From Panopea generosa (Eukaryota; Mollusca; Bivalvia; Adapedonta; Hiatellidae): a stretch of DNA of 64,000 nucleotides. The notes below the pieces were generated by a model, which was given only the letters and a program-made list of their open reading frames with translations, was not told the origin of the DNA and did no database searches. The position numbers and the translations under genes were made by a program. Positions 6,783-37,726 of this stretch are shown here, piece after piece (the stretch's first letter is position 1; each line of letters begins with the position of its first letter). The stretch covers positions 15,738,482-15,802,481 of the forward strand of contig CM055897.1 in the NCBI GenBank assembly GCA_029582155.1. Direction: 5' to 3'.

Positions 6783-7345
6783 TTACACAACGTTCAGCTT
6801 TGTGGCTAATGCATTGTATAACATGACTATGACGAGCAGACCGAGTATTGCCAGTAGCACCGTTTTCAGTTGCAGGTTTACATTCATATCTTGAACTAGA
6901 AACTGACAAATTGTGTTAAACATATTGTTGATCACCAATTGTACCCATGTAATCCAGCCGATTAAATGTTTATTGCTAGATTCGGGTTGTACTAAATCTG
7001 GCGTCATCATAAGTTTTAGGAAGGTAAGCCCGTTTTTTGTCATTCTTGGATTACACTTATATCCGATACTATCACAGCAATTCACCCAGCGAATTCTTTT
7101 ATAATCAAGATTTCCCCAAATGTTCAGCTTTTTAGCGATACGTTCCTCCATGCGTTTGAACTCATCCATACTTATAATGCCACGATTGCTAGTAGAATGT
7201 TCGTTCTCCATGTCATCTGGATTATTACCCTCTCCCGACATCATCTGTGCTCTACCACCTACGATTTCAATTTGGCCACAATCTGTATATTCATTTCCTA
7301 CTACACGGTCGTATTTCGTCAGGATGAGAAGTATGTCTACATCAT
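6783..7345 (-). CDS. GTPase gene, exon 5 (G4 motif and membrane tail)
   Basis: The exon starts after an AG acceptor at 7346-7347 and supplies the last two bases of codon 211. It encodes VDILLILTKYDRVVG with the TKxD guanine-specificity motif, a conserved-looking segment with RIRWVNCCDSIGYKCNP, and the tail segment VLLAILGLLVIVMLYNAL, ending at a TAA-complement stop at 6783. The 153-codon frame that begins at an internal methionine (7244) is only part of this exon. Confidence 0.85.
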
Positions 7346-10300
7346 CTTAAAGTATAAACATTGGACTAAAATTAGGGATCGATTTGCATTGCCCTCCAAA
7401 TCAATTATCTGAAAAATATCTATAGCATAATTTGCTTATATTTACATCTTGTATGCAGCGCGGCAGGTAAAATCGCTAGAATGTAAAATTAAGTTTTAAA
7501 TCAATATTTTTATATATAATTATTTCGTAAAATATGAGAAAACATGATATTTTATCAGAGTGGTGAAGATGATACTACATAAATATCGGGCACATACTCC
7601 TCTCGCAGATTCATTCTTGGTAAACCAAATTCAATAAATAATGACCATTATGGTGAATGAAATCGAAATCATGTAGCAGTTTTGATATATCCTAAAATGC
7701 ACTGCATTTTAATTCGGAATATTATTTTGCTCTAGCATTGAAAAGGCCATTGACGTTCCATTTCAATATTTTATTTTAACATTTTTAATAGATATTCTAA
7801 TGGCATTGAATAGTCACTTTGTATATATCTAAGCATGGTATTATTGCTATGGATAAACTGTTTCAATGACAATTCTCTTCTTGTGAATTTTGACTAACGT
7901 ATATAATTAACATTCCGATTTCAAGCGATGATTTGAATACAAATTTAATTTACTTACTACAGCAAAACAAAACGCCTTAACTTTGTAACTTTCCTGTTAT
8001 GTAAGTGTTAGCATAGTTCAATAGTATTTTAACTAATTCCAATTGGTAATGTAACTATTAAACTCTTATTGTTTGGTTTACTTATACACAATTCAATACT
8101 AAAACACCTAATTTTATATTCAAAACAAAAATACTCGCTTACACAGAAGTTTGCCGCTGGCGCCCACGGCTGATGTAACATCTTGTAAACACTGTATGAG
8201 GTTTGTAGGAACCTCTTCTAGGCAACTGTGTACAAATATTATCTTTTTGACCTTCAATTCGGGCTTTGCTTCTTTGAAAATATTTTCAAATTTAATTCCT
8301 TTCGATTGAAGTTCTTCGAGCGTCTTAATGGTAACCCCAGGATCAATGTAACCTGCAATATTACCTGTAATTTATATTTTTATCACGGGTGTTCATAAAC
8401 CAAACAATATAACTGTCAACAGTGTCTGTAGAATGAATACACTCTCCCAAATAGCAATGATGGGAAAGCCACAATTAAGCATGTTGATTGGTCAGTTGCT
8501 TCAACTTAAAGTTGGATTTCTTTCAGGCCAACCCTTCAAAGTATACCCCCATCCCCCGAAAAGAAACACACTTTTGAAGACTTGCTGACCACGGCCTAAA
8601 TGCCGCAAAGTAGTATCCCCTTGATATACTATTCAAACACTAAAAAATTGCAGACCCAAGGGCACTTCTAGTAGCAAAGCGTTTACCTACGAGCATATTT
8701 TTAGTACGGGAAATAGGAAAAGGTCACAGGAATAAGTCAAAGGAATAAGAGAGATGATCAAATTAAATAACATTTTCTTGTTCTAAGAAATATTGTACAC
8801 TGTTACTTTTGTGGACAGAATTAGTGTCACGAATAGGCTCTATGCCTTCCAAACATTTACTTCGGTGTTTATTTTGATAAAACATTTTGACAGATGTAAG
8901 AACATTATCTTTGTAAGACTTGCCTGTAATTGTTTTACCCTTTTTGCAAGGAATTTGTACAACAGGACCACTAGAATTGAAGAAAATGGCATATAAAACC
9001 TTATTGGCGCTTCTTGACCTCTTCGCTATGACTGGCCTAATCTAATTTTCACCAAGCTATTGTTTGTTATTGATGAGCCGTTGGGGCGAAGTATCATCCC
9101 CAATGAGCAAGTCAGAAATTTTTCTAGGATTACATTTTTTTTTCAAAAGTTTTTTAGCACAATCTAAACGCTAGGCCTTTCGGTCAGGTGTCAGCAGGTA
9201 TCCATCTAGCACAAAGCTTCTTTAATTTCAAACAGTTAGTCAGAATATGATGTACGGTGCCTTCTGAAATTCCAAGAATATAAGCTACCTTGGAAACAGT
9301 ACCGTCCATCTTCTTTACCATAGCTCTAACAGCACCAATGTTTCCCTTTGTTGCTGCAACAACAGGTCTACCTGGGCGGTTATCTTCTTGCAGTCTATGC
9401 TGACCCTCGCCCCCCTTAAATTCCTTAACCTAACGAAATACTGTTCTAATGTTACGATAGAACTATCATGTATACGACACAATTCAGAATAAATATCTTG
9501 TTGGCGATAACTGCAAAGAAACTCTGGCTTTAACGTAAGCCTTAATTTCTATTTTTTCTTCAGGTTTCATTATGACATTGAAATATAGCCACTGTACATA
9601 AGTGTGTATAATTCAACAATTAATATCTTGGTCAATTATAATCGTAGGGCCATTAGTGACATGATTTATTGAATGCCTCTCGTATATGTTCAATATTTGA
9701 ATTGCCTTTGGTTTATCTTTTTTTAAAAATCGATTGTAAAACAAGTTCTTACGATTTACCCCAATTAAGCTTAATGTCTTCCTTGGTAGAACCAGTACTA
9801 AGTATAATCGTGTAAATGCTCAATGACACAACATTAAGCACTGATAATCTTTACAAGGGATAAATACAAACAAGCTAATAAGAAGGCAATGTATAACTAG
9901 TATAAGCATCGTCGCCACAGATGTATTACACTAGTGTTATGTTATACGGTAGTTTGTATAAAACAGTTCAAATGTTATATAACACAAACGAATTGCTACA
10001 ATTTAGCTCACCGCCGATCACATATTCCAGTATTTCTCTAAGTGAGTCAGTGTTTTCATCTTCAAGCCCAGCAAAATCAAAGATGTGTGGAAGATTTGGT
10101 ATTATTTCACGTACAGCATCTTCGTTGTTTAAGTCATCCGGTATGTCAGCTAGTAACACGCCACAATTATTGTACCTGAAAATGTATTACTTGTAAATAA
10201 ATGCAATACTTCCGGTAAAGTACTTCACACCATCTTAGATGTTCCAATTTATCAATGGGACGTTATATTATAGATAAGCGTATTCTGTTCAAATATCTGT

Positions 10301-13300
10301 TTTGGTGAATCACTACTTTGTTAGCAAATAAGTAATTCCTTTGATTTTGGTAAAACCTGTTATGTAATAGATTTATTCAGGATATATTAATTTGACAATA
10401 AATTAAAGAAATACACGACCTATTTTAACAATCTATTCAAAACATATTTCTGGAAATTATATACCTAACCGATGCAAATATAAATACACCCGTATGTGAG
10501 CAGATCATAAATTTTATTTCTATCTGGAAAAGGCGTAACTCTTTACGAGAAATCATATTCGAATACATGAAGAAGATTTTAATATTTAATAATGGGTCTA
10601 GAGGGTTCGAGGCCACCCATACTTAACCGTACACGGTTGATATACAGCAAGTCAGTATTACTTGTGAATACTAGTAACCAAGAATACAAGCACGCACATT
10701 TCCATCAAATCTTTTAAACATTCAATGTAGGAAATCAGTGTGACTCAATTATCATGCAATACTTATCAAATGAAACAAAAATTTCAACAAACTTGACTAA
10801 TATTTACTTTTTACTAAAAATATGAGAGAAGAAATACATTGAGTAAGCATTTTGATAGTTACATATTTGTTTTAGATATTAAAGATTTACTTGTAAAAAT
10901 AAAATAGCAAATATACCAAATAAATACCAATGTGTTTTTCGCCTAATTAAAAATATTTAAATATATGACTGAATAATAAACTATTTACTGTAGTTATTTA
11001 TTTTATAGTTTGATCTACCACACTTTATATTTGGTATAGTGTTATTCACTTATTCAACTATTTAAGAATGTACTCAAATAGTTAAAATCATAATATCCTA
11101 ATTATACATCAATTATTTCATACATGTTTTAGTGTGTAAAACGTAATTTGTAATTTGCATTCATATCAAAATACCATTATACTTTTATACCGTGTAAGAA
11201 ACTTAGTTTTAGATTGTTCATCTCCTTCTCCAAGATCGGCTCTAGGTATGTACGTTTCCAAAAGTACACTTATCAGCGTATTTATAAAAGCACTTTTTCC
11301 AGATCCAACTTTGCCAATGAGAACAATTTTCCTGTCAACAGCTACATTGTCTTTCTGGCAGGACCGCTGAATTTCACTCATAAGACGTTTATTTTCAGCA
11401 ATTATATTTGTGTCCTCCGCTGATTCTACAAATATAAGTGAACAATTGAGAACAATTTACAATCAAAGATATTCTAGACCGCACTTGTTTGTCAACATAC
11501 CTAACTTCTAAACATCTACTGACTAACATTTTCTACAGCATGGAATGTCCGAATTTCATTACTTCCAGACCTTTTTTTCAAATGACCTATTTATGTGTCG
11601 ACGTGCCGTAAAACACCATTCATTCAAATATATACGGCTACTGAACATTTTCAGCAATCATTCTGATACAGCTATGGAAAAGGTTTTTACCTTTAATACA
11701 GACATGTTCAGCAACCATTCTGATACAGCTGTGGAAAAGGTTTACCTTTAATACAGACATGTTCAGCAATCATTCTAATACAGCTGTGGAAAAAGTTTAC
11801 CTTTAATACAGATATGTTCAGCAATCATTCTGATACAGCTGTGGAAAAGGTTTACCTTTAATGCAGACATGTTCAGCAATCATTCTGATACAGCTGTGAA
11901 AAAGGTTTACCTTTAATACAGACATGTTCAGCAATCATTCTGATACAGCTGTGGAAAAGGTTTACATTTAATACAGACATGTTCAGCAATCATTCTGATA
12001 CAGCTGTGGAAAAGGTTCACCTTTAATACAGACATGTTCAACAATCATTCTGATACAGCTGTGGACAAGGTTCACCTTTAATTAAGAACATGTTCAACAA
12101 TCATTCTGATACAGCTATGGAATAGGTTCATCTTTAATAAAGACATGTTCAGCAATCATTCTGATACAGCTGTGGAAAAGGTTCACCTTTAATACAGACA
12201 TGTTCAGCAATCATTCTGATACAGCTGTGGAAAAGGTTCACCTTTAATACAGATATTTTCAGCAATCATTCTGATACAGCAATCATTCTGATACAGCTGT
12301 GGAAAAGGTTTACCTTTAATACAGACATTTTCCATAACATTGTTTACGTCTATTTACATTTATTACCTGGCCTCTTGTTCTTTATATGGTCATGTACTAA
12401 CAAACAAAAAATCACTTAGTTAAATACTAAGAAATATATCCCCTACTGCAATACATTTTCCTCAGCTAGGTCCAGAAGTACAAAAGTCAGTAAGCTTAAA
12501 ACTTCATTAAGTAATATTTGTAGCTGTTGTTAACTTGAAACGTATTCACCGAATATAGTTTTGTTAATTTCTTTAGATTAGTTAAAACCACTTCAAATAC
12601 ATGCAACGTGTATTTTTATATGCAATATAACTGTACTTATACATTGCTAAAAGCAATGGTTTTGTTCCATAAGGATATTTTTGTCATTTTCGGAGCTGAA
12701 TTGGTTATAGTTAGATATATAATCCCAACAAAATTTGGGCAATGTATTGACGCGTCCACGTTCCCATTTGAATAATTTTAATTGTGGTCCATTGTATAAT
12801 TGATTACAGCGTATGGCCCTCGTACAGTTTTTATTCTCAGATGTCAGACTTCACCACCCTCTCCCTATGTCGTACTAACAGCTACTATTAATATTTCGGT
12901 TATAAATACACCTCATACATACTTTTAACAGCACTCTGTTTCTAAGGAAAAAATCAAGAACACAATCAATTTGCATTTTCGAATATTGTATTCATATTTT
13001 CCTGACGAAACTTGTTTTATAAACTGTTAATACTTTATTAAATGTAAAGTTTCGGATAGTGACATACGGAAATTAATATACTTTCGTCAATTTAACGATT
13101 GAAATGTGAGCATGAACAAAATCAATCATGAACATTTTGTCCCTTTAACAAATCTCTGAAATGTGAATTGTAAGTGAATTGTCTTATTTCCATTACGATA
13201 CTTTTAAAATTAAAACTAAGGTACACGTTTTTATACGACTATTAAACCAGTTTTTTTTTGTTATTTATCAATTCATTTTGTACTACTATTGAATATAATA

Positions 13301-22699: not shown

Positions 22700-24615
22700 T
22701 TAATTTAATTTTGTTTTCCATACAGAGCTATCATCTGACTATACACTTTTGTTTTTTATACAGAGCTATCGTCTGGCTATACAATTTTGTTTTTTTATAC
22801 AGAGCTATCGTCTGGCTATACAATTTGTTTACCATACAGAGCTGTCGTCTGGCTATACAATTTTGTTTTTTATACAGAGCTATCGTCTGGCTATACAATT
22901 TTGTTTTTTTATACAGAGCTATCGTCTGGCTATACAATTTGTTTACCATACAGAGCTGTCGTCTGGCTATACAATTTTGTTTTCCATACAGAGCAATCGT
23001 CTGGCTATACAATTTGTTTTCCATACAGAGCTATCGTCTGGCTATACAATTTTATTTTCTGTACAGAGCTATCGTCTGGCTATACAATTTGTTTTCCATA
23101 CAGAGCTATCGTCTGGCTATACAATTTTTTTTCCATACAGAGCTATCGTCTGGCTATACAACTTTTTTCCCCATACTGAGCTATCGTCTGGCTATACAAA
23201 TTTTTTTTTCCATACAAACTTATTGTTTGGCTATACAATTTTGTTTTCCATACAGAGCTATCGTCTGGCTATACAATTTGTTTTCCATACAGAGCCATCG
23301 TCTGGCTTTACAATTTTGTTTTCCATACAAAGCTATCGTCTGGCTATACAATTTTGTTTTCCATACAGAGCTATCGTCTGGCTATACAATTTGTTTTCCA
23401 TACAGAGCTATCGTCTGGCTATACAATTTTGTTTTCCATACAGACCTATCGTCTGGCTATACAATTTTGTTTTCCATACAGAGCTATCGTCTGGCTATAC
23501 AATTTGTTTTCCATACAAAGCTATCGTCTGGCTTTACAATTTTGTTTTCCATACAGAGCTATCGTCTGGCTATACAAGTTGTTTTCCATACAGAGCTATC
23601 GTCTGGCTATACAATTTGTTTTCCATACAAAGTTATCGTCTGGCTATACAATTTGTTTTCCATACTGAGCTATCGTCTGGCTATACAATTTTGTTTTCCA
23701 TACAGACCTATCGTCTGGCTTTACAATTTTGTTTTCCATACAGAGTTATCGTCTGGCTATACAATTTTGTTTTCTATACAGAGCTATCATCTGGCTATAC
23801 AAGTTGTTTTCCATACAGAGCTATCGTCTGGCTATACAATTTTGTTTTCCATACAGAGCTATCTTCTGGCTATACAATTTGTTTTCCATACAGAGCTGTC
23901 GTCTGGATATACAATTTTGTTTTCCATAAAGAGCTATCGTCTGGCTATACAATTTGTTTTCCATACAGAGCTTTCGACTGGCTATACAATTTTGTTTTCT
24001 ATACAGAGCTATCGTCTGGCTATACAAGTTGTTTTCCATACAGAGCTATCGTCTGGCTATACAATTTGTTTTCCATACAGAGCTATCGTCTGGCTATACA
24101 TTTTGTTTTCCATACTGAGCTATCGTCTGGCTATACAATTTTGTTTTCCATACAGAGCTGTCGTCTGGCTATACAATTTGTTTACCATACTGAGCTATCG
24201 TCTGGCTATACAATTTTGTTTTCCATACAGACCTTTTGTCTGGCTATACAATTTTGTTTTCCATACAGAGCTATCGTCTGGCTATACAATTTGTTTTCCA
24301 TACAGAGCTATCGTCTGGCTATACAATTTGTTTTCCATACAGACCTATCGTCTGGCTATACAATTTTGTTTTCCATACAGACCTATCGTCTGGCTATACA
24401 ATTTTGTTTTCCATACAGACCTATCGTCTGGCTATACAATTTTGTTTTCCATACAGAGCTATCGTCTGGCTATACAATTTGTTTTCCATACAGAGCTATC
24501 CATACAGAGCTATCGTCTGGCTTTACAATTTTGTTTTCCATACAGAGCTATCGTCTGGCTATACAATTTTGTTTTCCATACAGAGCTATCGTCTGGCTTT
24601 ACATTTTTTCCATAC
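22700..24615. repeat. 36-39-bp minisatellite, ~1.9 kb
   Basis: About 50 units carrying 'ccatacagagctatcgtctg' and 'gctatacaattttg' with a variable T run that changes unit length between 36 and 39 bp. Because the unit lacks stop codons in several frames, open frames of up to 654 codons appear on the plus strand and others on the minus strand. The same reading cycles through all three phases, which is not expected of a gene. Confidence 0.95.
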
Positions 24616-24828
24616 AGAGCATACAATTACGATTTTCAAACGTTAATTTCATCTTGCAAAAAGTGTACACGGTGATTGTTTAATAAAATGCACGTGTATT
24701 TCACAATAATAATTACACAATGAATGGTCAATATATATGTAGTTAAAACGTTATTGCAAATCAAAAACAGTTTATTTAGATGTTTTGTTCAGTATATGTA
24801 TGTTTCAAATCAATACCATGTATTGAAG

Positions 24829-24968: not shown

Positions 24969-25042
24969 TAAGTTTAGATTAAAAAATTACAATGTTTAAT
25001 TTTTAACTCACCAGGGCAAAGACTAGTGTTACAGTGCCATCC

Positions 25043-25859
25043 ATGGATCCATCGAAACGAAAAACAGGATTCAGATACGACAACAATCCGGCATTACAAG
25101 ATAAACAGACCATGGGCAAGCAACAAATAAATAATGTTATAAACACATTCTTGCATTTTAGACTAACGCTATTGTTGGTTTCTGTGATCGTTTTACTATT
25201 TGCCGCCCTATTTTACAGCTGGAGATTTCCACCTGCAGGAATGCATGGGGGCAATGTTAACCTGGACACATTGGCTGACATCTTATCATCTCAGCAAGAC
25301 TTTCTACGAAAACTTTCGGCACTTGAAAGACAAATTAAGAAGATGGAAGAAATGAATTTGGAAATAAACTATAATTTAACCACCTTAAACACATTGATTA
25401 CTGATTCAGTTAAAAAATTTGAAGAGACTAGAGAAGAATATAGATATACACAACAAAAAGCTGAAAAAGAACAGAAAAATATACTAAAACAGCAAAAAAA
25501 CATGGCTACTCAGTTTAAAAACATCAAGAGAGGGAGAGGTGCATCATTACATAAAATTAAACAATCTTTGATAGCTGAAATTGTAGAGAAAGCGAATGTG
25601 ATTGAAAAAATTAAATCATCATTTGATGAAACTGTTAGCCAGATAGAAACAGAATTTAAAAATGAAATACAAGCCTTAGGAGCGGAGAAAACTACATTCC
25701 AAAAAGAAATAGACAACTTTCAACACACTAAACAAAATATAACAAGCGATTTAGACAACTTCAGTAAAACTATTAAAAATAATACATTTTACTTTACCAA
25801 ATTTGTACGAGAAAATAAACAAACAGTTGGTCGGATCTTGGAAAACACTTTTAATAAAG
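25043..25859 (+). CDS. Coiled-coil gene, exon 1 (TM1 and coiled coil)
   Basis: Opens with ATGG in the context 'ccatccatgg' and ends at donor GTATGG after one base of codon 273. It carries the first membrane segment and the entire coiled coil. Repeated K/E/Q-rich heptads are seen, for example KKFEETREEYRYTQQKAEKE. Confidence 0.82.
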
Positions 25860-28800
25860 GTATGGTATTTTCCTTTTTCTGTACGAATCTTTATACTTTT
25901 TCTTTATACTAAACGCGTTCATGTCATGAAGTTTATTTAAGAAAGTGAAATAAAGAAAGATAATCGCAAGCGACGGAAGTTTCTGTCTGATTCGAAACAT
26001 GCACGAAGGACTATTTTTCTTATATATAAAACACTCTTCTTATTTTGTTTTCATATATCATTATATTTTTCACGATCGTGGTTATATAGTTTGATACACC
26101 ACATCATAGATAGTACAAATGTCACAGCGCGAGATTTTTTTATATCGACAATAATAGGCTATAAGGTGAGACAGAAACAATTAATAACGGTAGATAACGT
26201 AATAAATTATAGGGTACGAAAGAAAAAATATATGCTTACCAAGGTTAATAAAATAAAACAAAACAAAATTCAAAATATCTTATTTTAAATAAAAGCGACT
26301 GTGACAACTCATAATCTCAACACATTTAACATAAAAAAACTCGACGTTTAAAGGGCACAAACACGATTGTTTTATTATCGAGCTGTCGTGTTGGTGGGTA
26401 TACATATGTCGTGTTAGCACTCCTTATTTGTCGAGCTGTCGTGTCTCCGCCAAGTCAACACGAAAACGCGGCAAATAACTTGTCGGTCGAGTTTTCTTAT
26501 TGGCGGAGAAAAGACACAAAAACAGGAGAAAACAAAACGTATGCGACAAAAAAAAGGCGACAACACGACAGATTCAAACAACACGACATATTCATACCCT
26601 TATCCGTAAAATGTGTCGTGTTTTTGATATTGTGCCCCACCAACATGCCAAAACACATAAACTCGACAAATAAGATATTTGTTTTATTCGAGTTTATGTA
26701 TTTTTGTCCCGCCAACAAAACATCACAGAAATCAGTTACCATAGCAGTACAATTAACTCAGTGAAATAAGTGAAATGATAGTGATTGAATTATGAGAGCT
26801 TGGCAAAACCACTGTCGTGCCAAAAGCAGTCAATTTGCATGTCCAAGGTTGCAGCTAAATTTGACTTCCATCCATAAATTACAGTTCTGTTAAACGACTT
26901 ACTTTAATGAGATATCGTTTTCGTAGGTATAAACAGTATGTATGAACAAAACAAAAGTAGAAGTTCTTGATTTACAGATTTTAATAAGAAAATTGGAAAT
27001 GTATCAGATAGTTCTTTTTTCCGGTAAGATTTAAAACCGTTTTAAATTTATCAAGCAAATGAACAGTCTCAGTATATGAAGGCGTATTTAATGGTGATTT
27101 TAAAATTGACACTATTTTGTTACAGGCACAAATGTTACTAAAAATTTATTTAAGATTCAACGTGCTATTTTAAACAGTTTAGAAATAAAATAATTGATTG
27201 ATTGATTGAATGAATATTTAGCGTCATTTTTATGCCATCGAGGGCTAACAGACGATCAGTTAACCTAACCACTGTTTCCTGGGATTAACCAGTACTCGAG
27301 CACACCCCTGCAAGTATCTCCGCAAGTAACTAATAACATTCCCACTTGAATCAGCGGTGAGAGACGAATGATAATGAGACGCAATGTCGTATATCAATCA
27401 TCACGGAGACTGTTGCCGGGCGGGGGATTCGAACTCACGACCCCTGGATTGATAGTCTGACGCATAACCAACTGAGCTAATCGGGCCCGGCTAGAATAAA
27501 ATAAGCAATGGGTAATAAGCGGTTGATTTTACACTTCAGACATATTCTAAGATAAAATAACCCTTGTCGAGATTTCCGATTGACTTATTCAAAGTACTTC
27601 CGGTATACAAGTATATCAACAGTTCATTTCTTCATAGCCTTGAGTAATACATTTTAGCTAAATTATTTTTTATGCTTGCTGTTTCAGTCACCTTAATAAT
27701 AGCAATCATTTTGCTATACATACTTTACCCAATACTGGCAGCATCAGTGTACAGGTTGTCAAAACAGTCACATAGAAATTCAAATACGACATCTTCAGAT
27801 GGTGATGTTTCTAACGAAATGGCAATTGTAAGTATATGTGAAGTATGTCTGTAAGAACAGCCTGTTTATTTATGCTTTACCGAAAAGTATACCTAACTAT
27901 GTGAATATTGAATATTAAAATACTTGTTAATATGTTTTAATCAACCTTTTCGTGTTCATATTCCATCAGTCAGTCTTATGCTTACATTACTCTATGTTTC
28001 CGATTGTTGGGGTAACATGTCTTTGGTATAACCTGTTAAGTTATTTACCACCTAATATATTTCCTAAATATTTCTATTTGTTCATACATTAATTTATTAT
28101 AATTTTTATACTTATATAACTTATTATCATCTTCATATTCATTACCCTCACGCGCACAAACTGACCTACTGATGTGTCGACGTGCCATAAACTGTGCCAT
28201 TCGTTCGTTCACATATTCATTCATTCATTCATTCATTCATTCATTCATTCATTCATTCATTCATTCATTCATTCATTCATTCATTCATTCATTCATTCAT
28301 TCATTTTCTGGACAATTGTTATATAATATTTATGAATACCAACACTGTTTTTATGTCATTTTTTATTTAATTTTTATTAGTCTTTATTTACATGCAATTC
28401 AAAATAATGCAATTCAAGACAACGTCATTTCTTGTCAGTTTCGGAATATGCTTTATCAGTTTTGTCGTCACTGGAGCACCATATATTTTATAATTTAGTT
28501 TAGTTGTCAAACAATGATGAATAAGGTATAAAATCTTATGTTTATCATTCAATACTAAGAATGATTAATACAAAAGTATATTAAAAATCAATATGACGCA
28601 ATTGGGATTCGAACCCTTGTCTCTGATGATGTATTAATAAAACTCAACAGCTTAACCGAATGCACCACTGGTTTATAAGGACTCACACCACTAGTATCTC
28701 CCTTGAGTACTCCGGACCTACAGATGAAGGAGGTAGAAATAAAACTTTAGTTCTTTTTTCTTTTTTTTCAGGGCTTTGTACTGCAGTAATTTGTTTTTTT

Positions 28801-31800
28801 CTAGCATGAGTTAAATGGTCAGTATTTGATAAATCACCACTGAAAATTTGATGCTGATGCCAGCTTTCTGGACAATTCTGTGTCATCTCAGAATTGTTGG
28901 TTCGAACCGCATCATGTGTGAATAGTTGCCATATTATTACTCTGGAAATAGATATGTCTCACAAAAGCATTGAATTTGAGAAAAAACCTGGTCACGGTAT
29001 ACTTTTTATCCTTTATAAATGCATATCTTGAACCGGTGAGAATTTGAGCCCAGACACATGCTGCAGAATTTGTTTTTTTTACTGTGTTTTTGACATAAAT
29101 GCTACAATAGAGCCCTATGGGAAATGTAATAGTGGTGTGAGACGTAAATGTAACTACATTAAATACATATCAATCAAAACGAATGCATCTTTATCCGTGT
29201 AATTGTTCCGGTTTACCTGGTATCAATGCTAACATTGTCACTTTATCCGTGTAAGTATAACCCTGGTATAAATGTTAACATTGTCACTCTATCCGAGTTA
29301 ACATTGTCACTCTATCCGTGTAAGTGTTCCCCCGGTATCAATGTTAACATTGTCACTTTATCCGTGTAAGTGTTCCCCTGGTATCAATGTTAACATTGTC
29401 ACTCTATCCGTGTAAGTGTTCCCCCGGTATCAATGTTAACATTGTCACTCTATCCGTGTAAGTGTTCCCCCAGTATCAATGATAACATTGTCACTTTATT
29501 CGTGTAAGTGTTCCCCTGGTATCAATGTTAATATTGTCACTCTATCCGTGTAAGTGTTCCCCCGGTATCAATGTTAACATTGTCACTCTATCCGTGTAAG
29601 TGTTCCCCCGGTATCAATGTTAACATTGTCACTCTATCCGTGTAAGTGTTCCCCTGGTATCAATGTTAACATTGTCATCTATCTGTGTAAGTGTTCTCCC
29701 AGTATCAATGTTAAAATTGTCACTTTATCCGTGTAAGTGTTCCCCTGGTATCAATGTTAACATTGTCACTCTATCCATGTAAGTGTTTACCCGGTATCAA
29801 TGTTAACATTGTCACTCTATCCGTGTAAGTGTTCCCCCGGTATCAATGTTAACATTGTCACTCTATCCGTGTAAGTGTTCCCCCGGTATCAATGTTAACA
29901 TTGTCACTTAATTCGTGTAAGTGTTCCCTCGGTATCAATGTTAACATTGTCACTCTATCTGTGTAAGTGTTCCCCTGGTATCAATGTTAACATTGTCACT
30001 CTATCCGTGTAAGTGTTCCCCCCGTACCAATGTTAACATTGTCACTCTATCCATGTAGTTGTTCCCCTGGTATCAATGTTAACACTTTCACTCTATCCGT
30101 GTAAGTGTTCCCCCGGTATCAATGTTAACATTGTCACTCTATCCGTGTAAGTGTTCCCCCGGTATCAATGTTAACATTGTCACTCTATCCGTGTAAGTGT
30201 TCCCCTGGTATCAATGTTAACATTGTCATCTATCTGTGTAAGTGTTCTCCCAGTATCAATGTTAAAATTGTCACTTTATCCGTGTAAGTGTTCCCCTGGT
30301 ATCAATGTTAACATTGTCACTCTATCCATGTAAGTGTTTACCCGGTATCAATGTTAACATTGTCACTCTATCCGTGTAAGTGTTCCCCCGGTATCAATGT
30401 TAACATTGTCACTCTATCCGTGTAAGTGTTCCCCCGGTATCAATGTTAACATTGTCACTTAATTCGTGTAAGTGTTCCCTCGGTATCAATGTTAATATGT
30501 CACTCTATCTGTGTAGGTGTTCCCCTGGTATCAATGTTAACATTGTCACTCTATCCGTGTAAGTGTTCCCCCCGTATCAATGTTAACATTGTCACTCTAT
30601 CCATGTAATTGTTCCCCTGGTATCAATGTTAACACTTTCACTCTATCCGTGTAAGTGTTCCCCCGGTATCAATGTTAACATTGTCACTCTATCCGTGTAA
30701 GTGTTCCCACGGTATCAATGTTAACATTGTCCTCTATCCGTGTAAGTGTTTCCCTGGTATCAATGTTAACATTGTCACTCTATCCGTGTAAGTGTTCCCC
30801 CAGTATCAATGTTAACATTGTCACTATATCCGTGTAAGTGTTCCCTCGGTATCAATGTTAACATTGTCACTCTATCCGTGTAAGTGTTCCCCTGGTATCA
30901 ATGTTAACATTGTCCTCTATCCATGTAAATGTTCCCCAGGTATCAATGTTAACATTGTCACTTTATCCGTGTAAGTGTTCCCCCGGTATCAATGTTAACA
31001 TTGTCACTCTCTCCGTGTAAATGTTCCCCCAGTATCAATGTTAACATTGTCACTATCTCCGTGTAAGTGTTCCCCTGGTATCAATGTTAACATTGTCACT
31101 CTATCCGTGTAAGTGTTCCCCCAGTATCAATGTTAACATTGTCACTCTATCCGTGTAAGTGTTCCCCCAGTATAAATGTTAACATTGTCACTCTATCCGT
31201 GTAAGTGTTCCCCCGGTATCAATGTAAGCATTGTCACTCTATCCGTGTAAGTGTTCCCCTGGTATCAATGTTAACATTGTCACTCTATCCATGTAAGTGT
31301 TCTCCCGGTAACAATGTTAACATTATCACTCTATCCGTGTAAGTGTTCCCCTGGTATCAATGTAAACATTGTCACTCTATCCGTGTAAGTGTTCCCCCGG
31401 TATCAATGTTAACATTGTCACTCTATCCGTGTAAGTGTTCTCCCGGTATCAATGTAAACATTGTCACTATCAATGTAAGTGTTCTCCCAGTATCAATGTT
31501 AACATTGTCACTCTATCCGTGTAAGTGTTCCCCCGGTATCAATGTAAACATTGTCACTCTATCCGTGTAAGTGTTCCCCCGGTATCAATGTTAACATTGT
31601 CACTCTATCCATGTAAGTGTTCCCCTGGTATCAATGTTAACATTGTCCTCTATCCGTGTAAGCGTTCCCCTGGTATCAATGTTAACATTGGCACTCTATC
31701 CGTGTAATTGTTCTGGTTTACCTGGTATCAATCTTAACATTGTCACTTTTTCCGTGTAAGTGTTCCCCTGGTATTAATGTTAACATTGCCACTCTTTCCG

Positions 31801-34800
31801 TGTAAGTGTTCCTGTGGTATTAATGTTAACATTGCCAGTGTATCCGTGTAAGTGTTCCCCTGGTATCAATGTTAACACTGTCACTTTATCCGTTAAGTGT
31901 TCCCTTAGTATCAATGTTAACACTGTCACTTTATCAGTGTAAGTGTTCCCCTGGTATCAATGTAAACACTGTCACTCTATCCGTTTAATCGTTCCGGTTT
32001 ACCTGGTATCAATGTTAACATTGTGACTTTTTCAGTGTAAGAGTTTCCCCGGTATCAATGTTATCATTGTAACTTTATCCGTGTAAGCGTTCCCCTGGTA
32101 TCAATGTTAACACTGTCACTCTATCCGTGTAATCGTTCTGGTTTACCTGGTATCAATGTTAACATTATCACTCTATCCGTGTAAGTGTTCCCTCAGTATC
32201 AATGTTAACATTGTGACTTCATTTTAAACAAACTGCAGTTTTTAATAGCTTATTTACGCTACATCATTCGTTCTATCTCAAGTTTCATATACATATATAC
32301 ATATATATATTATTGTGTAATCTCTCAATTATTTATCATGGATTATTTTTAATCAGTTGAAACAATACACTTTTTTTACATGAGTTTCGTAATAAGCAGC
32401 GACCAACATTATTTAAGCGCTTGAAAGCAAGAGATACTATCGGTGGTAAGTAAAGTAGTTGAAGTATCATCAAAGTGTTTCACACGCTTATATATAAAAT
32501 TTTGTATTTTTCATGCTTCAAAAAGTGATAGAATTGGTTTTGTTTATCACCACTAAACCCTTTATTTTAAGAAATGAAACGAATCTAATTATTCAATATT
32601 TATTTCTGCTGTAGGGAAATATACCTAAAAGACTTTTGAATGCTATATGTGTAATAAGTTTCCATGAGGACACTCAAGTACACCATCGACAACTTGTGTC
32701 AACAATTACGGAATGCTTTAAAGACGACCGGATTAGTGAATTCAAAGTACTCTACCATCTGATACGCCGACACGAAGACATTCAAAGTATACCATCAGCA
32801 AGATTGCATTTTATGTGTGTTAACTTTTCAGAAAGGTGTGTTTTAACTATATTTCCAAGCATTTGGTTGTGTACTGTATACATATCTAAAGCATGCTCGT
32901 ATTTGTACGAATATAACAAAAATTGAATATATTTGCTTTAATGGAATAGCGACATAACATTTTGTCTTAATTATCAAATAGTAGCTTTAACAGTTTGGCC
33001 ACATTTAAGTGTTCAAATAAGCACAAGGTTGTGTTGTATATGGACAAAGCTTAATGTTGTTCTGTATATAAATATTTTATTTTATAATAATGTATTATTG
33101 ATTGTAACTAAATAAACATATTGTTAAACTGTATGGGGATATTTAATTTCTTTTTTTCAGGGGCTAACCAGAAAAGAACATATTTTGCCTAAGCATAATG
33201 TTGTACCATATATTTGATTTGATTTTAAATTATATGTAAGGCTTTAACCTCATCAACACATTTCATAATATCTAACCGTTAAAACATATCTTTAGTTTGT
33301 TAATGTAGCGTTGTGCAAAGTGTGCACTCTCATTATGTGGCATTTACCGTAAAACACATTTGATTAGCTAGAACTTCAGTTTCACCTATCGCGAATTGAA
33401 ATCATGTCCACTGTCCGAATAGTTTTCATATCCGAAACCATGTCAGTCCAACAAAGACACATTTCAAACGGTTATAAATTCTCAAACTGTTAAGACTTAA
33501 TGTGATAGATTCAACCAAAGTTACATGTTACAAAGTTTATAAACCATTTTTAGTATTGTTGTGTATTTTGTTACTTCTAAATGTAAAACAAATAACATTT
33601 TTTGTATTCATTACCTTTAGACCACAATTCTGTGTAATGTAACTAGACTGATACAACTATTCAAATTCTGTTCAATTGACTAGTTTCATCAATAAGAAAA
33701 AAACACAAAAAAAACACTTTCCTCAAACATTAACTATTCTATCCCAGAACCTGATATCACCCGGAACCTGATATCTCCCGAGCCTGATATCTCCAAGAAC
33801 CGGATATTTCCCAAACCGGATATCTCTAAAAACATGATATCTCCCGAACCAGGTCTATTAACCCCCAATGAAAAGGCAGAGAATGATATGCCTGTCCCAC
33901 AATTCATAGCAATTAAACGCTTATTAAACTGTGAGGTCATTCAAACTTTAAGTTGAAGCAAAGGACCAATCAACGTACTCAAATGTGGCTTTCCCAATAT
34001 TGCTTTTTATCGGACCCAATTAGGAGAGATTGGTCCGTTCTATAGACTAAACATTTACATATTATTGTTTTCATTTCAGGAATGTGATTATCGAGCAGCC
34101 GGGACTTGGATTAGGGGACATGAAGAAATCAACATATGAGAAAGTACGCTCATTTCATGGTAAGGCCGTTTATATATATTGATATACTTATGAATTATTT
34201 CATCGTAGAAAATACTCACTTCATATGACAGGACATGTTGGATACCTATTTTTATATTGTCTCTTTAATTGGTCCTCTGACTGCCATATTAGATCGTGGC
34301 CAATATGAAAAATCTACAAATGATCGATTTGATTTGAGATCATCTAAGTATAAACATAAATATACACTACATTTAATCAATTATCATTATATATAGGGTA
34401 TAAATAAGTATAGAAATTAAATGGAAGCATGAAATAAATATGAGACTAACAAACAATTTCAAATGTCTAATATGTTGCATAAAATCAATACTTAAAAAAC
34501 AAAAATGCGACGGATTTAACAGATTTTATATAAAAATGATTCGAACGTTCCACGGGACTAACAGAATATACATGAAAATGAACAGAAACTTCGACAGAAC
34601 TACTAGATTCATAATATTGATCGAAAGCTTTTAATATTTAAATGTTAATTCATATTTTGTCTACCTGCTGAACTATATCTGTATTTAAATAAAAACTGTT
34701 TTTATTTATCTCCAGGTGGTTTAGTGATAATATACGTCAGAGACCCCTACTCCCGCGGTCTCAGTCCCCACAAAAGGTACAATACGGATCTCGACTGTGT

Positions 34801-34930
34801 TAAATCACAACAAGAGTTGAAAGTGCTAAACGATATTGGCCGGTTTTTTAGTGTTTTTCAAACATTTACAGACTTTCAACTGCAATGCCTGCGAAATATA
34901 GTCTCGGAAACATTTGAAAAAATTTATTAA
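25043..34930 (+). CDS. Two-membrane-segment coiled-coil protein with unrecognised C-terminal domain (five-exon gene)
   Basis: Exons 25043-25859, 27688-27827, 32615-32835, 34080-34159 and 34716-34930 add up to 1473 nt, 490 residues plus stop; all junctions are GT-AG and in phase. Residues 1-40 are basic; the first membrane segment is about 41-59 (LTLLLVSVIVLLFAALFY), followed by roughly 200 residues of charged heptad-like coiled coil (75-265) with three N-glycosylation sequons (NLT, NIT, NNT). The second membrane segment is 273-293 (TLIIAIILLYILYPILAAS). Basic residues flank both segments outside the hairpin, predicting both ends in the cytosol and the coiled coil outside or in a lumen. Residues 320-490 form a domain with alternating strand- and helix-like segments (AICVISFHEDT, LHFMCVNFSERNVIIE, GLVIIYVRDPYSRGLS, YNTDLDCVK). 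I do not recognise this family. Translation could start further upstream, since the frame stays open to a possible acceptor near 25014. Confidence 0.8.
25860..26330 (+). other. Coiled-coil gene intron 1, first part
   Basis: AT-rich intron with no recognised element. Confidence 0.5.
26335..26760. repeat. Possible inverted-repeat element in intron 1
   Basis: The motif 'cgagctgtcgtgt' occurs twice, and its reverse 'acacgaca' occurs several times further on. Near 26655-26700 there is a local hairpin, 'ataaactcga' against 'tcgagtttat'. The GC content is higher than in the surrounding intron. This looks like a decayed MITE, but terminal repeats and a target duplication were not found. Confidence 0.35.
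26761..27194 (+). other. Coiled-coil gene intron 1, no feature seen
   Basis: AT-rich intronic DNA before a SINE. Confidence 0.45.
27195..27491 (-). mobile_element. tRNA-derived SINE (family B) in coiled-coil gene intron 1
   Basis: Minus strand: the acceptor-like 5' end 'gccgggc' pairs with 'gcccggc' after the B box; A box 'tagctcagttggttatgcg', B box 'gagttcgaatcccc'; body as at 14250; (CAAT)n tail at 27195-27212. It is antisense to the host gene. The near-perfect acceptor pairing makes this the best preserved family B head. Confidence 0.85.
27688..27827 (+). CDS. Coiled-coil gene, exon 2 (TM2)
   Basis: 140 nt between acceptor GTTTCAG and donor GTAAGT. Two opening bases complete the valine codon begun in exon 1. 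It encodes the second membrane segment and a serine/asparagine-rich linker with SDGDVSNEMAI. Confidence 0.82.
27828..28200 (+). other. Coiled-coil gene intron 2, start
   Basis: AT-rich intronic DNA, nothing recognised. Confidence 0.5.
28215..28305. repeat. (ATTC)n microsatellite
   Basis: About 22 copies of ATTC in intron 2. A 108-codon frame across it (FIHS repeats) is an artefact of the tetranucleotide. Confidence 0.95.
28590..28675 (-). tRNA. tRNA-like sequence, probably a SINE head or pseudogene
   Basis: Minus strand: 'cagtggtgcattcggttaag' and, about 40 nt on, 'agggttcgaatccc', a strong B box, then 'aattgcgtc'. The spacing allows a long variable arm as in Leu/Ser tRNAs, but the 3' end has no complementary 5' acceptor strand, so a working tRNA is unlikely. 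Confidence 0.35.
28682..29143 (+). mobile_element. 470-bp inverted-terminal repeat element (family E), copy 1
   Basis: Begins 'ctcacaccactag' and ends 'tagtggtgtgagac', so the ends are inverted repeats of about 12 bp. The whole sequence recurs in reverse at 41578-42047 with shared words such as 'ccagctttctggacaattct', 'tgttggttcgaacc' and 'gagccctatgggaaatgt'. No coding frame. It lies in coiled-coil gene intron 2, immediately before the 46-bp array. Confidence 0.8.
29190..32215. repeat. 46-bp minisatellite, ~3 kb, in coiled-coil gene intron 2
   Basis: About 65 units of 46 bp made of 'tccgtgtaagtgttccccc', 'ggtatcaatgttaacattg' and 'tcactcta'. Each unit holds the perfect palindrome CAATGTTAACATTG. 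A higher-order duplication of about 551 bp (12 units) is visible: variant units with 'attgtcatctatctgtg' occur at 29671 and again at 30222. Units degrade at the right edge after 31700. Confidence 0.95.
32216..32614 (+). other. Coiled-coil gene intron 2, end
   Basis: AT-rich DNA leading to acceptor CTGTAG; nothing else recognised. Confidence 0.5.
32615..32835 (+). CDS. Coiled-coil gene, exon 3 (start of C-terminal domain)
   Basis: 221 nt after acceptor CTGTAG, ending at donor GTGTGT. Encodes GNIPKRLLNAICVISFHEDT to HFMCVNFSER. The in-phase fit with exons 2 and 4 supports it. Confidence 0.8.
33734..34060. repeat. Dispersed repeat family D, copy 2, ending 20 bp before exon 4
   Basis: Opens with five tandem variants of 'cctgatatctcccgaa' (about 22 bp each, 33745-33855), then shares 'aggtctattaac', 'cccacaattcatagca', 'ttaaacgctta' and 'cggacccaat' with the copies at 21185 and 35155. 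Its end at about 34050 is next to the polypyrimidine tract of exon 4. Confidence 0.7.
34080..34159 (+). CDS. Coiled-coil gene, exon 4
   Basis: 80 nt, acceptor TTTCAG and donor GTAAGG. Encodes NVIIEQPGLGLGDMKKSTYE and KVRSFHG. It is too short for most open-frame searches and was found by splice phase. Confidence 0.8.
34160..34715 (+). other. Coiled-coil gene intron 4, no feature seen
   Basis: 556 bp of AT-rich intron. A 64-codon frame at 34440 has no supporting signal. Confidence 0.6.
34716..34930 (+). CDS. Coiled-coil gene, exon 5 (C-terminus)
   Basis: 215 nt after acceptor CTCCAG to the TAA at 34928-34930. Encodes GLVIIYVRDPYSRGLSPHKR through FTDFQLQCLRNIVSETFEK. The start methionine of the 68-codon frame at 34724 is internal. 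Confidence 0.83.
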
Positions 34931-35084: not shown

Positions 35085-35090
35085 AATAAA
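35085..35090 (+). promoter_or_regulatory. Candidate AATAAA poly-A signal
   Basis: An AATAAA hexamer 155 nt past the stop codon of the coiled-coil gene, in a typical position for a short 3' UTR. Confidence 0.35.
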
Positions 35091-35154: not shown

Positions 35155-35365
35155 AACGTAGTCTATCCCAGACCCTGATATCTCCCGAATCAGGTCTATT
35201 AACCACCAATGGAAAAAAGCAGGGAATTAAATTGAACGCTTACTAAATAATGATGTCATTCAAACTTTCTCTGAAGCAACTGACCAATCAGCGTGCTCGT
35301 AACAATTGCTGTTGATCGGACCCAATCGGGAGAGCTGGGTTCGTTCTACAGACTAATATGTAATG
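35155..35365. repeat. Dispersed repeat family D, copy 3
   Basis: Starts 'ctatcccagaccctgatatc' and continues with 'ctcccgaatcaggtctatta', 'gtcattcaaactttc', 'accaatcagcgtgctc', 'cggacccaatcgggagag' and 'gggttcgttctac'. It lies 220 bp beyond the coiled-coil gene's stop codon. Confidence 0.7.
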
Positions 35366-36104: not shown

Positions 36105-37726
36105 TTCACGAATAGTGGGCAGAGTCAAATAATTTGCTTTCTGATTACCAATTTGGTTTCAGAAAAAATAAAAGTACTATAGATTGCATTTTTGTATTAA
36201 GTTCTATCATTATTAAAGTCATTAATACGGAAAAGAAAAAGTTATATTGTGCTTTTGTGGATTTTTCAGAAATCAAATTTTTTTGATGTTGTTTATCGTA
36301 ATGGAATTTGGTTTAAATTACTTTTATCAGGTGCATCAACAAAAATTGTTAACATGTTAAAACCAATATAAGAGGGTGTAAAGTCCTGTGTGAAAGTTGA
36401 TGGCCATGTTACTGATTATTTTAATAGTAATACGGGTGTAAAACAAGGAGAGCCCTTGTCCCCCTTCTTGTTCATTTTATTTGTAAATGACATGCATGAC
36501 TGCTTAAAAGATGACAATTTTGACAGTATTACCATTGATCAATTACAAATGTTTATGTTGTTGTTTGCCCACGATACAGTATTATTTTCATATTCAAAAG
36601 TGGGTTTACAAAGAATGCTCACAAAATTATTTATTGTGACAAGTGGGGTGCAACTGTAAATATAGCGAAAACTGTTGTTATGGTTTGTAAAAAAGGAAAT
36701 AGACAAGAAAATTTTGAAGTATTCTATAATAATAATAATAAGCTAAAAAATGTAAACAGATTTACCTATTTAGGATTTACCTTATCATCTAATGGTAGTT
36801 GTTACCAATCACAAAAAGCATTGTCTGAACAAGCCTCAAGAGCATTATACTCATTAAATTCATTATATGATATTGTTTCACTAGAAATAGGAGACAAAAA
36901 TGAAATATTTGATTCCATGATTTTGCCAATTTTGAATTATGGATCGGAAGTGTGGGGGTTCCATAAATCACCAGATGTTGAACACATACATCAAAAATTT
37001 ATGAAGCAATTGTTAAATGTAAGACAGCAAACAGCGAATGCTTCGATATATCCCGAGCTGGGTTGTGTTCCATTATATATTATAAGAAAGCTCAGAATAA
37101 TGAAATACTGGTACAAAATTATCAAAAATCCTGACTCCCTGGTACACAAAGTATTCAATTTACAGGATGAAAATGGTAATCATATAAACAATTTTGCTAA
37201 AAATGTCAACCAACTGTTAGATTCATTAGGATTCTCATTTATTTGGAATTCTAATAAAGTTATAAATGTACAACTAAATAACATTGTTCAATGTATCTAT
37301 GATCAGTATTTACAGCAGTGGTTTGCTGACCTTAGAACGTCACCCAAACTTGAGACATATCAAATTATAAAGAGCAATTTCGATTATGAAACTTATCTTT
37401 CAAGTGTTCAAAACAATAAATACAGAACTGCTTTAACCAGGCTTAGATGTTCTGCACACAATTTAATGATTGAGGAAGGAAGATACAGAAACATTGAAAG
37501 AAACACAAGATTATGTACTAAATGCAATATGAACTCGGTTGAAACAGAATACCATTTTGTATTAGTATGTCCATTTTATCGTGAACTAAGAATAAAGAAC
37601 TTACCTAGATATTTTTGCCACTGGCCTTCGATGACAAAATTTAAAAATCTGATGAATACGAAGCATAAACAATTATTGAACAAAGTAACAAAGTTTGTGT
37701 TTCTTGCTACAGAACAAAGGGGATGA
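36105..37726 (+). pseudogene. LINE (non-LTR retrotransposon) ORF2 fragment, broken
   Basis: The 5'-truncated reverse transcriptase starts near DYQFGFRKNKSTID (36140), then CAFVDFS, a frameshift, GVKQGEPLSPFLFILFVNDM (36437 on) and FAHDTVLF, where the catalytic FADD has become FAHD. After stops near 36371 and 36658 and a frame change, a 348-codon stretch (36680-37726) covers the thumb (FTYLGFTLSS, ILNYGSEVWGF) and a C-terminal Cys/His region, RLRCSAHNL...RLCTKCN...ETEYHFVLVCPFY. That C-terminal pattern is typical of one animal LINE group; the clade is not certain. Mutated catalytic residue, stops and truncation make it inactive. Confidence 0.85.

Follow-up and report, generated by a model that had tools for sequence, protein, structure and literature searches.

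In the window, the whole 64-kb stretch of DNA that we analysed (C4:15738482-15802481), we found a gene on the plus strand whose five exons, as the earlier note had proposed, can be spliced without a break in phase into a 490-residue protein. Every border is GT-AG, and the frame closes with TAA. The features of this gene are as follows, with the basis for each in brackets where there is one.

25015..25042, plus strand: 28-base stretch before the ATG at 25043, from an alternative acceptor-like caccag/GG (frame open from 25007)
25043..25859, plus strand: exon 1, first-stage version, with a possible start ATG, TM1 and the whole coil, ending NTFNK-G/GT (splice join, frame length)
25162..25859, plus strand: exon 1, version suggested by the paralogues, with the acceptor gcattttag/A directly before TM1 (same-phase AG in nine places)
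25160..25222, plus strand: TM1, about residues 40-60 (hydropathy)
25262..25813, plus strand: coil, helices 74-161 and 167-257, a predicted hairpin (hydropathy, periodicity, AlphaFold2)
25526..25540, plus strand: predicted hairpin turn, residues 162-166, near the middle of the loop (AlphaFold2)
27688..27827, plus strand: exon 2, TM2 (about residues 273-294) and linker (homologous exon in ten paralogues; candidate TM exon in the C5 pair)
29297..32218, plus strand: 46-bp minisatellite, 63 copies, within intron 2 and outside the protein
32615..32835, plus strand: exon 3, first part of the C-terminal domain, ICVISFHEDT ... VNFSER (splice join, paralogue alignment)
34080..34159, plus strand: exon 4, NVIIEQPGLGLGDMKKSTYEKVRSFH (80 bases here and in ten close paralogues)
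34716..34930, plus strand: exon 5, GGLVIIYVRDPYSRG ... ETFEKIY and stop (splice join, paralogue alignment)
35085..35090, plus strand: polyadenylation-like signal of the AATAAA or ATTAAA type, 155 bases after the stop, with a second such signal at 35226

The open frame of exon 1, 301 codons from stop to stop, is longer than the longest frame in 200 Markov-simulated 64-kb windows (maximum 195). By a simple score applied to all sites in the window, the splice sites of exons 3-5 and the donor of exon 1 lie in the top 2.1%, while the sites of exon 2 are weaker (acceptor top 7.8%, donor top 6.0%). When amino-acid composition was used as a coding test, exons 2-5 were indistinguishable from chance. 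The gene model is firm because ten close paralogues share its exons, their borders and their phases; judged from sequence, the predicted gene is genuine, one of a small, lineage-expanded family in the same genome. Repeats of the CCTGATATCTCCCGAA type are alike in intron 3 (33742-33850) and 3' of the gene (about 35160-35210).

The rest of the window holds gene remnants and repeats. On the minus strand, positions 6786-11456 contain pieces of what may be a P-loop GTPase-like gene: the stretch 11169-11456 includes GKVGSGKSAF, and matches to AIG1, IIGP and further P-loop families are weak and below cut-off. Among these pieces lie a hydrophobic C-terminal stretch with no Pfam match (6786-7346, minus strand) and mariner-like transposase remnants (8766-9548, minus strand; Transposase_1 E=0.0072, below cut-off). 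A LINE-like reverse transcriptase remnant occupies 36372-37723 on the plus strand; RVT_1 matches 36372-36656 with E=2.5e-8, and no Pfam family matches the longer frame that extends to 37723. Directly 5' of the gene, a 38/75-bp minisatellite (22707-24620) is open for about 660 codons in two plus-strand frames, most likely a repeat artefact. Between 42411 and 47674, a 73-codon frame recurs five times at a spacing near 1.36 kb, once 0.96 kb, suggesting a longer tandem unit.

Paralogues in the same genome

With the C-terminal domain as query, the genome from which the window comes (G000; 39 contigs totalling 1.474 Gb) gave at least 37 matches at E<=10, 35 of which group into 13 gene copies; counts from the genome searches are lower bounds. 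Besides the window gene (C4a), the copies are C4b, divergently oriented at a distance of about 82 kb; eight copies, C1a-h, in C1:23.71-24.12 Mb; one copy on C11; and two distant copies on C5 (71.38 and 71.41 Mb) that are 26-30% identical in aligned parts. A second search with a C5 domain as query gave at least 15 matches and no gene beyond the 13. Matches on C7 and C18 (E 1.7 and 1.84) were dropped when inspection gave no credible exon match.

Paralogues with the same TM-coil-TM arrangement, which the earlier note had suggested seeking in other bivalve genomes, exist within the window's own genome: a TM-coil exon, TM2, domain and the intron phases are kept in 11 of the 13 copies. In the ten close paralogues, exon 2 encodes a membrane helix and is always two bases longer than a multiple of three (a script score chose its borders, except in C1b, where they were placed by hand to agree with C1f), exon 3 measures 212 or 221 bases, and all sites are GT-AG in the same phases. 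Exon 1 ends in NTFNK-G/GT in the window gene and nine close paralogues, and C1a has NAFNK; a TM1-coil exon with NTFNK-G, a TM2 exon and the phases of exons 3-5 occur together in the window gene, C4b, C1b-h and C11. Exons 3 and 4 are fused into one in the C5 pair, both of which have a candidate TM exon, and C5a has a TM-plus-coil-like frame upstream. Domain identity to the window copy is 50-74% in the seven close copies aligned and 26% in the aligned C5 copy. The two C5 loci (C5:71379200-71389100 and C5:71411900-71421800; L044 and L043) are about 94% identical in DNA and, going by the aligned copy, are without the GLGLGD loop.

The C1 copies lie in two four-copy blocks (23.71-23.82 and 24.01-24.12 Mb) with the same +,+,-,- order and 93-99% identity. 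Comparing C1a-d with C1e-h, three of the four pairs are 97.5-98.7% identical and the fourth, C1d-C1h, 92.8%. The second block may have arisen when the first was duplicated recently, or the blocks may be an assembly duplicate in which both haplotypes stand side by side in a single contig; if both sets are one, there are only about nine distinct copies.

N-terminus and membrane topology

Both hydrophobic segments that the earlier note had described, TM1 and TM2, are clear. Its basic N-terminus, in contrast, is doubtful: the first 39 residues have no support from the paralogues and a same-phase AG stands before TM1. We found an AG in one phase directly 5' of the TM1 segment in all nine places inspected (C4a, C4b, C1a, C1b, C1c, C1d, C1e, C1h and C11, a sample without C1f, C1g and the C5 pair). 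On our acceptor scale this site scores above 1 in five of the nine; C1a, C1e, C1h and C11 show the same ttgtag/G in their DNA with a score of at most 1. The window residues from the ATG at 25043 to the acceptor have no visible counterpart in C4b, where the frame closes about 50 bases upstream. Because of this acceptor-like AG and the missing counterpart in C4b, the basic stretch may belong to an intron, in which case translation would start in an exon farther upstream. An upstream coding exon common to the window gene and C4b could not be distinguished from chance, and an exon running from the acceptor-like site at 25015 with ATG 25043 as its start stays open as an alternative.

Lysines and arginines are more numerous after TM2 than before it in 10 of 11 copies (3 against 3 in the window gene), and because of this excess a cytosolic C-terminal domain is favoured. 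Of the earlier proposal that both ends are cytosolic with the coil outside, these charges favour the part concerning the C-terminal domain. Sequons are present in nine of the ten coils counted (none in C11), and C1b, C1c, C1f and C1g carry 4-5 cysteines after the first hydrophobic segment. Both features agree with an outside or luminal coil and do not prove it, as sequons in asparagine-rich coils can arise by chance. In the window gene the loop has four N-X-S/T sites (111, 232, 239 and 246), one more than the three first counted.

The coil

The coiled coil of about 200 residues that had been read from the sequence is borne out by its periodicity: residues 63-271 have a hydrophobic period of 3.52-3.58, a strength reached by none of 2000 shuffles. 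The coils of all ten copies measured (without C1a and the C5 pair) are likewise periodic, at 3.54-3.64 (0 of 500 shuffles each). When exon 1 alone was modelled by AlphaFold2 from its single sequence without an alignment, it folded as a hairpin (mean pLDDT 64.9, pTM 0.41), and we predict with moderate confidence that the window coil is an antiparallel hairpin. A Foldseek search of this model against PDB gave 353 matches at E<=10 and none at E<=0.001; the top neighbours are generic coiled-coil arms, all non-significant, and exon 1 compared with PDB by sequence gave nothing significant.

Coil length after the hydrophobic segment ranges from 95 residues (C11) to 484 (C1c and C1g), with 208-218 in C1d, C1e and both C4 copies, 300 in C1b and C1f, and 231 in C1h (208 when counted from the homologous point). 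Because C1b aligns with both halves of C1c (67% and 38%), the sequences suggest that coils grow by internal duplication; comparing C1c with itself at E<=1e-3 did not show the repeat.

The C-terminal domain

The earlier observation that the domain carries no recognisable family motif held across our searches: against Pfam, NCBIfam, PADLOC, PHROGs and PDB, by sequence and by profile, the domain gave nothing significant, nor did it against viral and prokaryote contigs. Going by sequence comparison, it is a domain absent from the libraries searched and conserved in the family. In an alignment of nine of the 13 copies (A1; C1f, C1g, C1h and C5b omitted as near-duplicates), 15 columns are invariant. 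A Pfam scan of these nine members at E<=10 listed three families: Symplekin_C (one member, 0.035), Tautomerase (three members, best 0.039) and DUF5500 (one member, 0.1). Families of the TIR, SEFIR, caspase and Rossmann folds were not among them. The profile of the nine against PDB sequences gave 12 matches at E<=10 (best E=0.02), none of them TIR or caspase; ten are Nup98, which count as one family and not as ten independent matches. We take these weak matches as chance because they are mutually discordant.

Read from the pattern of residues, the domain would run from a strand (ICVISF) through a helix, a strand-like YHLI, a strand (LHFMCV) and VIIEQ-GLGLGD to a further helix, followed by a strand VIIYVRDP, an FFSV strand and a last helix. 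This order has some backing from a poor model of exon 3 alone, which gave strand-helix-helix-strand at a mean pLDDT of 46 but makes the YHLI segment a helix; such a model is too poor to set against the five-strand flavodoxin-like fold of TIR and SEFIR domains. Chou-Fasman prediction was too weak to use.

In line with the earlier note's comparison to Rossmann- or TIR-like folds, the domain could still have one of the known alpha/beta folds (TIR, SEFIR, caspase-like or Rossmann), in a form so degenerate that sequence searches no longer detect it, a reading of the domain only that is compatible with every view of the whole protein set out below and that we regard as a real possibility falling somewhat short of an even chance. 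It is favoured by the low-confidence exon 3 model, by the conserved hydrophobic strands and GLGLGD loop, and by exons 4-5, which by eye recall what we take to be the third and fourth caspase strands. Against it stand the absence of these folds from the profile matches just described and the loss of the GLGLGD loop in the aligned C5 copy. For caspase (PF00656) we found no profile match and no invariant cysteine in A1, and the only invariant histidine, H53, lies outside any motif like the SHG of caspases. The classical Rossmann dinucleotide-binding motif is GxGxxG after the first strand; GLGLGD does not have this form and does not follow the first strand-like segment.

Divergence of coil and domain

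To compare the two parts of the protein, we calculated dN/dS by the Nei-Gojobori method in ten overlapping, non-independent pairs of our own choosing. In six of these the coil value exceeds 1 (range 1.10-2.19): C1b-C1c 1.64, C1d-C1e 1.47, C1d-C1h 1.53, C1b-C1f 1.10, C1c-C1g 1.75 and C1e-C1h 2.19. C11-C1d (0.98) and C4a-C4b (0.90) fall just below, and two distant, nearly saturated pairs give 0.56 and 0.27. Domain values are 0.18-0.86 in the eight pairs where they were computable. In C4a-C4b, 126 of 171 domain residues are identical (74%) and 53 of 209 in the coil (25%). Taken singly, pN exceeds pS in the coil at p<0.05 in one of seven pairs tested (p=0.044); pooled over C1b-C1c and C1d-C1e, p=0.017. 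Of seven pairs, four have a higher Nd:Sd ratio in the coil than in the domain at p<0.05.

We also compared exons with introns in nine pairs, counting only aligned intron sites, and because of this the intron divergence is somewhat lowered. The coil exon exceeds the pooled introns at p<0.05 in five pairs (C1d with C1e, C1h, C1a and C11; C1c-C1g). When C1d is set against C1e and against C1a, divergence amounts to 16% of sites in the coil exon, 11-12% in the introns and 6% in the domain exons. Tested against intron 1 alone, the coil is the more diverged in three pairs, which is close to a single contrast because all three involve C1d; C1d-C11 (0.059), C1b-C1c, C1b-C1f, C1c-C1g, C1e-C1h and C1a-C1e fall short of 0.05. 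In six pairs the domain exons are less diverged than the pooled introns at p<0.05, the exceptions being C1a-C1e, C1b-C1f and C1c-C1g; in C1a-C1e the order is reversed (domain exons 3.7%, introns about 2%, coil 0.6%).

The C1d-C1h contrast of coil with introns is confounded by what looks like a mosaic. The left part of C1h resembles C1a and C1e (92-97% from 2 to 5.5 kb, against 82-92% to C1d) and the right part C1d (96-100% from 6.5 kb on, against 86-93% to C1e), with a switch point near 5.5-6.5 kb of the oriented locus. C1h thus looks like an a/e-type coil half joined to a d-type domain half by recombination or gene conversion, although a haplotype switch in the assembly could mimic this.

Taken together, these comparisons give a clear split between a fast coil and a constrained domain in the more diverged pairs, and they are suggestive of positive selection on the coil. 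Relaxed constraint explains part of the fast change, because coiled coils tolerate change.

Possible functions

We propose, at close to an even chance, that the window gene encodes a member of a lineage-expanded family of two-pass receptors, in which the outer coil would bind a variable partner and an undescribed cytosolic domain would signal. Both protein ends would lie in the cytosol, and the segment linking TM1 to TM2 would form, on the outer face of the cell or within a lumen, an antiparallel coiled-coil hairpin, or a bundle in longer copies. Binding of a variable partner, most likely microbial or self/non-self, would displace both membrane helices or alter how the protein clusters, and this change would act on the conserved domain. 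That domain, about 170 residues long and from a family without a description so far, would relay the signal. A coil that varies much more between copies than the end domain is as expected of a recognition receptor. Of the sensor or scaffold suggested earlier, the fast coil with its conserved tail indirectly favours the sensor, the scaffold being a lesser possibility. We regard the receptor reading as the best supported, though the membrane orientation, the hairpin (modelled in the window copy only), the ligand binding and the signalling on which it rests are inferences. Its wider form, a new class of animal recognition receptor whose hairpin is diversified by internal duplication, coil-exon reassortment and positive selection and whose cytosolic signalling domain is new, is distinctly doubtful.

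A tether or scaffold on an organelle membrane (ER, vesicle or mitochondrion), with the coil as a drifting spacer or oligomeriser and the domain docking a fixed partner, is rather unlikely and has several observations on its side: the coil keeps its period while identity drops to 20-25% between distant copies, its length varies freely, its best Foldseek neighbours are spacers or arms (SMC arms, the PI3K regulatory-subunit coil and SH3BP5, all non-significant), and it fails to exceed intron 1 in six of nine pairs. Drift alone, however, reaches the intron level only, which the coil exceeds in C1d against C1e and C1a, and the sequons and the cysteines of C1b/c/f/g suggest the lumen of the secretory pathway or the exterior. 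It is improbable that TM1 is instead a cleaved signal peptide, at least in C1b/c/f/g, leaving a single-pass protein with a free coil end and parallel oligomers; the hydrophobic stretch of these four copies is weaker (1.7, Kyte-Doolittle) and followed by the cysteines, but it is ambiguous because an acceptor directly precedes it, the upstream exon that the acceptor implies would make the stretch non-N-terminal, and TM1 is very hydrophobic in C4a and C4b (2.6 and 3.4). Fast change, clustered copies and mosaics are also typical of allorecognition and gamete proteins, and the fast coil, clustering and mosaic-looking C1h would suit homophilic self- or gamete recognition, in which the coils of matching copies on different cells bind each other and the tail signals that they match, but with perhaps only about nine distinct copies, should the two C1 sets be one, we consider this improbable.

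If the receptor reading is true, the invertebrate recognition repertoire would extend beyond Ig, LRR, C1q and lectin modules to a coiled-coil hairpin, and there would be a new cytosolic signalling domain whose pathway is yet to be traced. On a modest reading, an uncharacterised expanded group gains a model of its genes and their layout, together with a contrast of fast coil and constrained domain that can be tested.

Comparison with known systems

Judging the literature by title, we recognised no description of such a family. Passages of PMC8382680 and PMC8905726 report TIR families expanded in bivalves and mention expanded orthogroups that are uncharacterised or unannotated; the present family may be among those orthogroups.

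The family resembles the membrane receptors with TIR domains (Toll-like and other TM-TIR proteins) in having an extracellular part, a membrane helix and a putative cytosolic alpha/beta-like signalling domain, and differs from them in its two passes, its coil and the lack of a detectable TIR sequence; Toll-like receptors carry leucine-rich repeats where this family has the coil. Prominin (PF05478) is alike in its helical loop between membrane helices and weakly matches residues 77-281, which span the coil and TM2, with E=0.0028 and a score of 16.3 bits where the cut-off is 34.3; this match ranks below two other weak coil matches, KIF21A_4th and Baculo_PEP_C. Prominins have five membrane passes, whereas the present protein has two hydrophobic segments. 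Among the 11 Pfam families listed, none is a HAMP or methyl-accepting family. Bacterial chemoreceptors and sensor kinases, in which TM1, a helical outer domain forming a periplasmic bundle, TM2 and a cytosolic output domain follow one another, share the layout of the predicted protein, a likeness by analogy only, as the gene described here is of the animal type, with introns.
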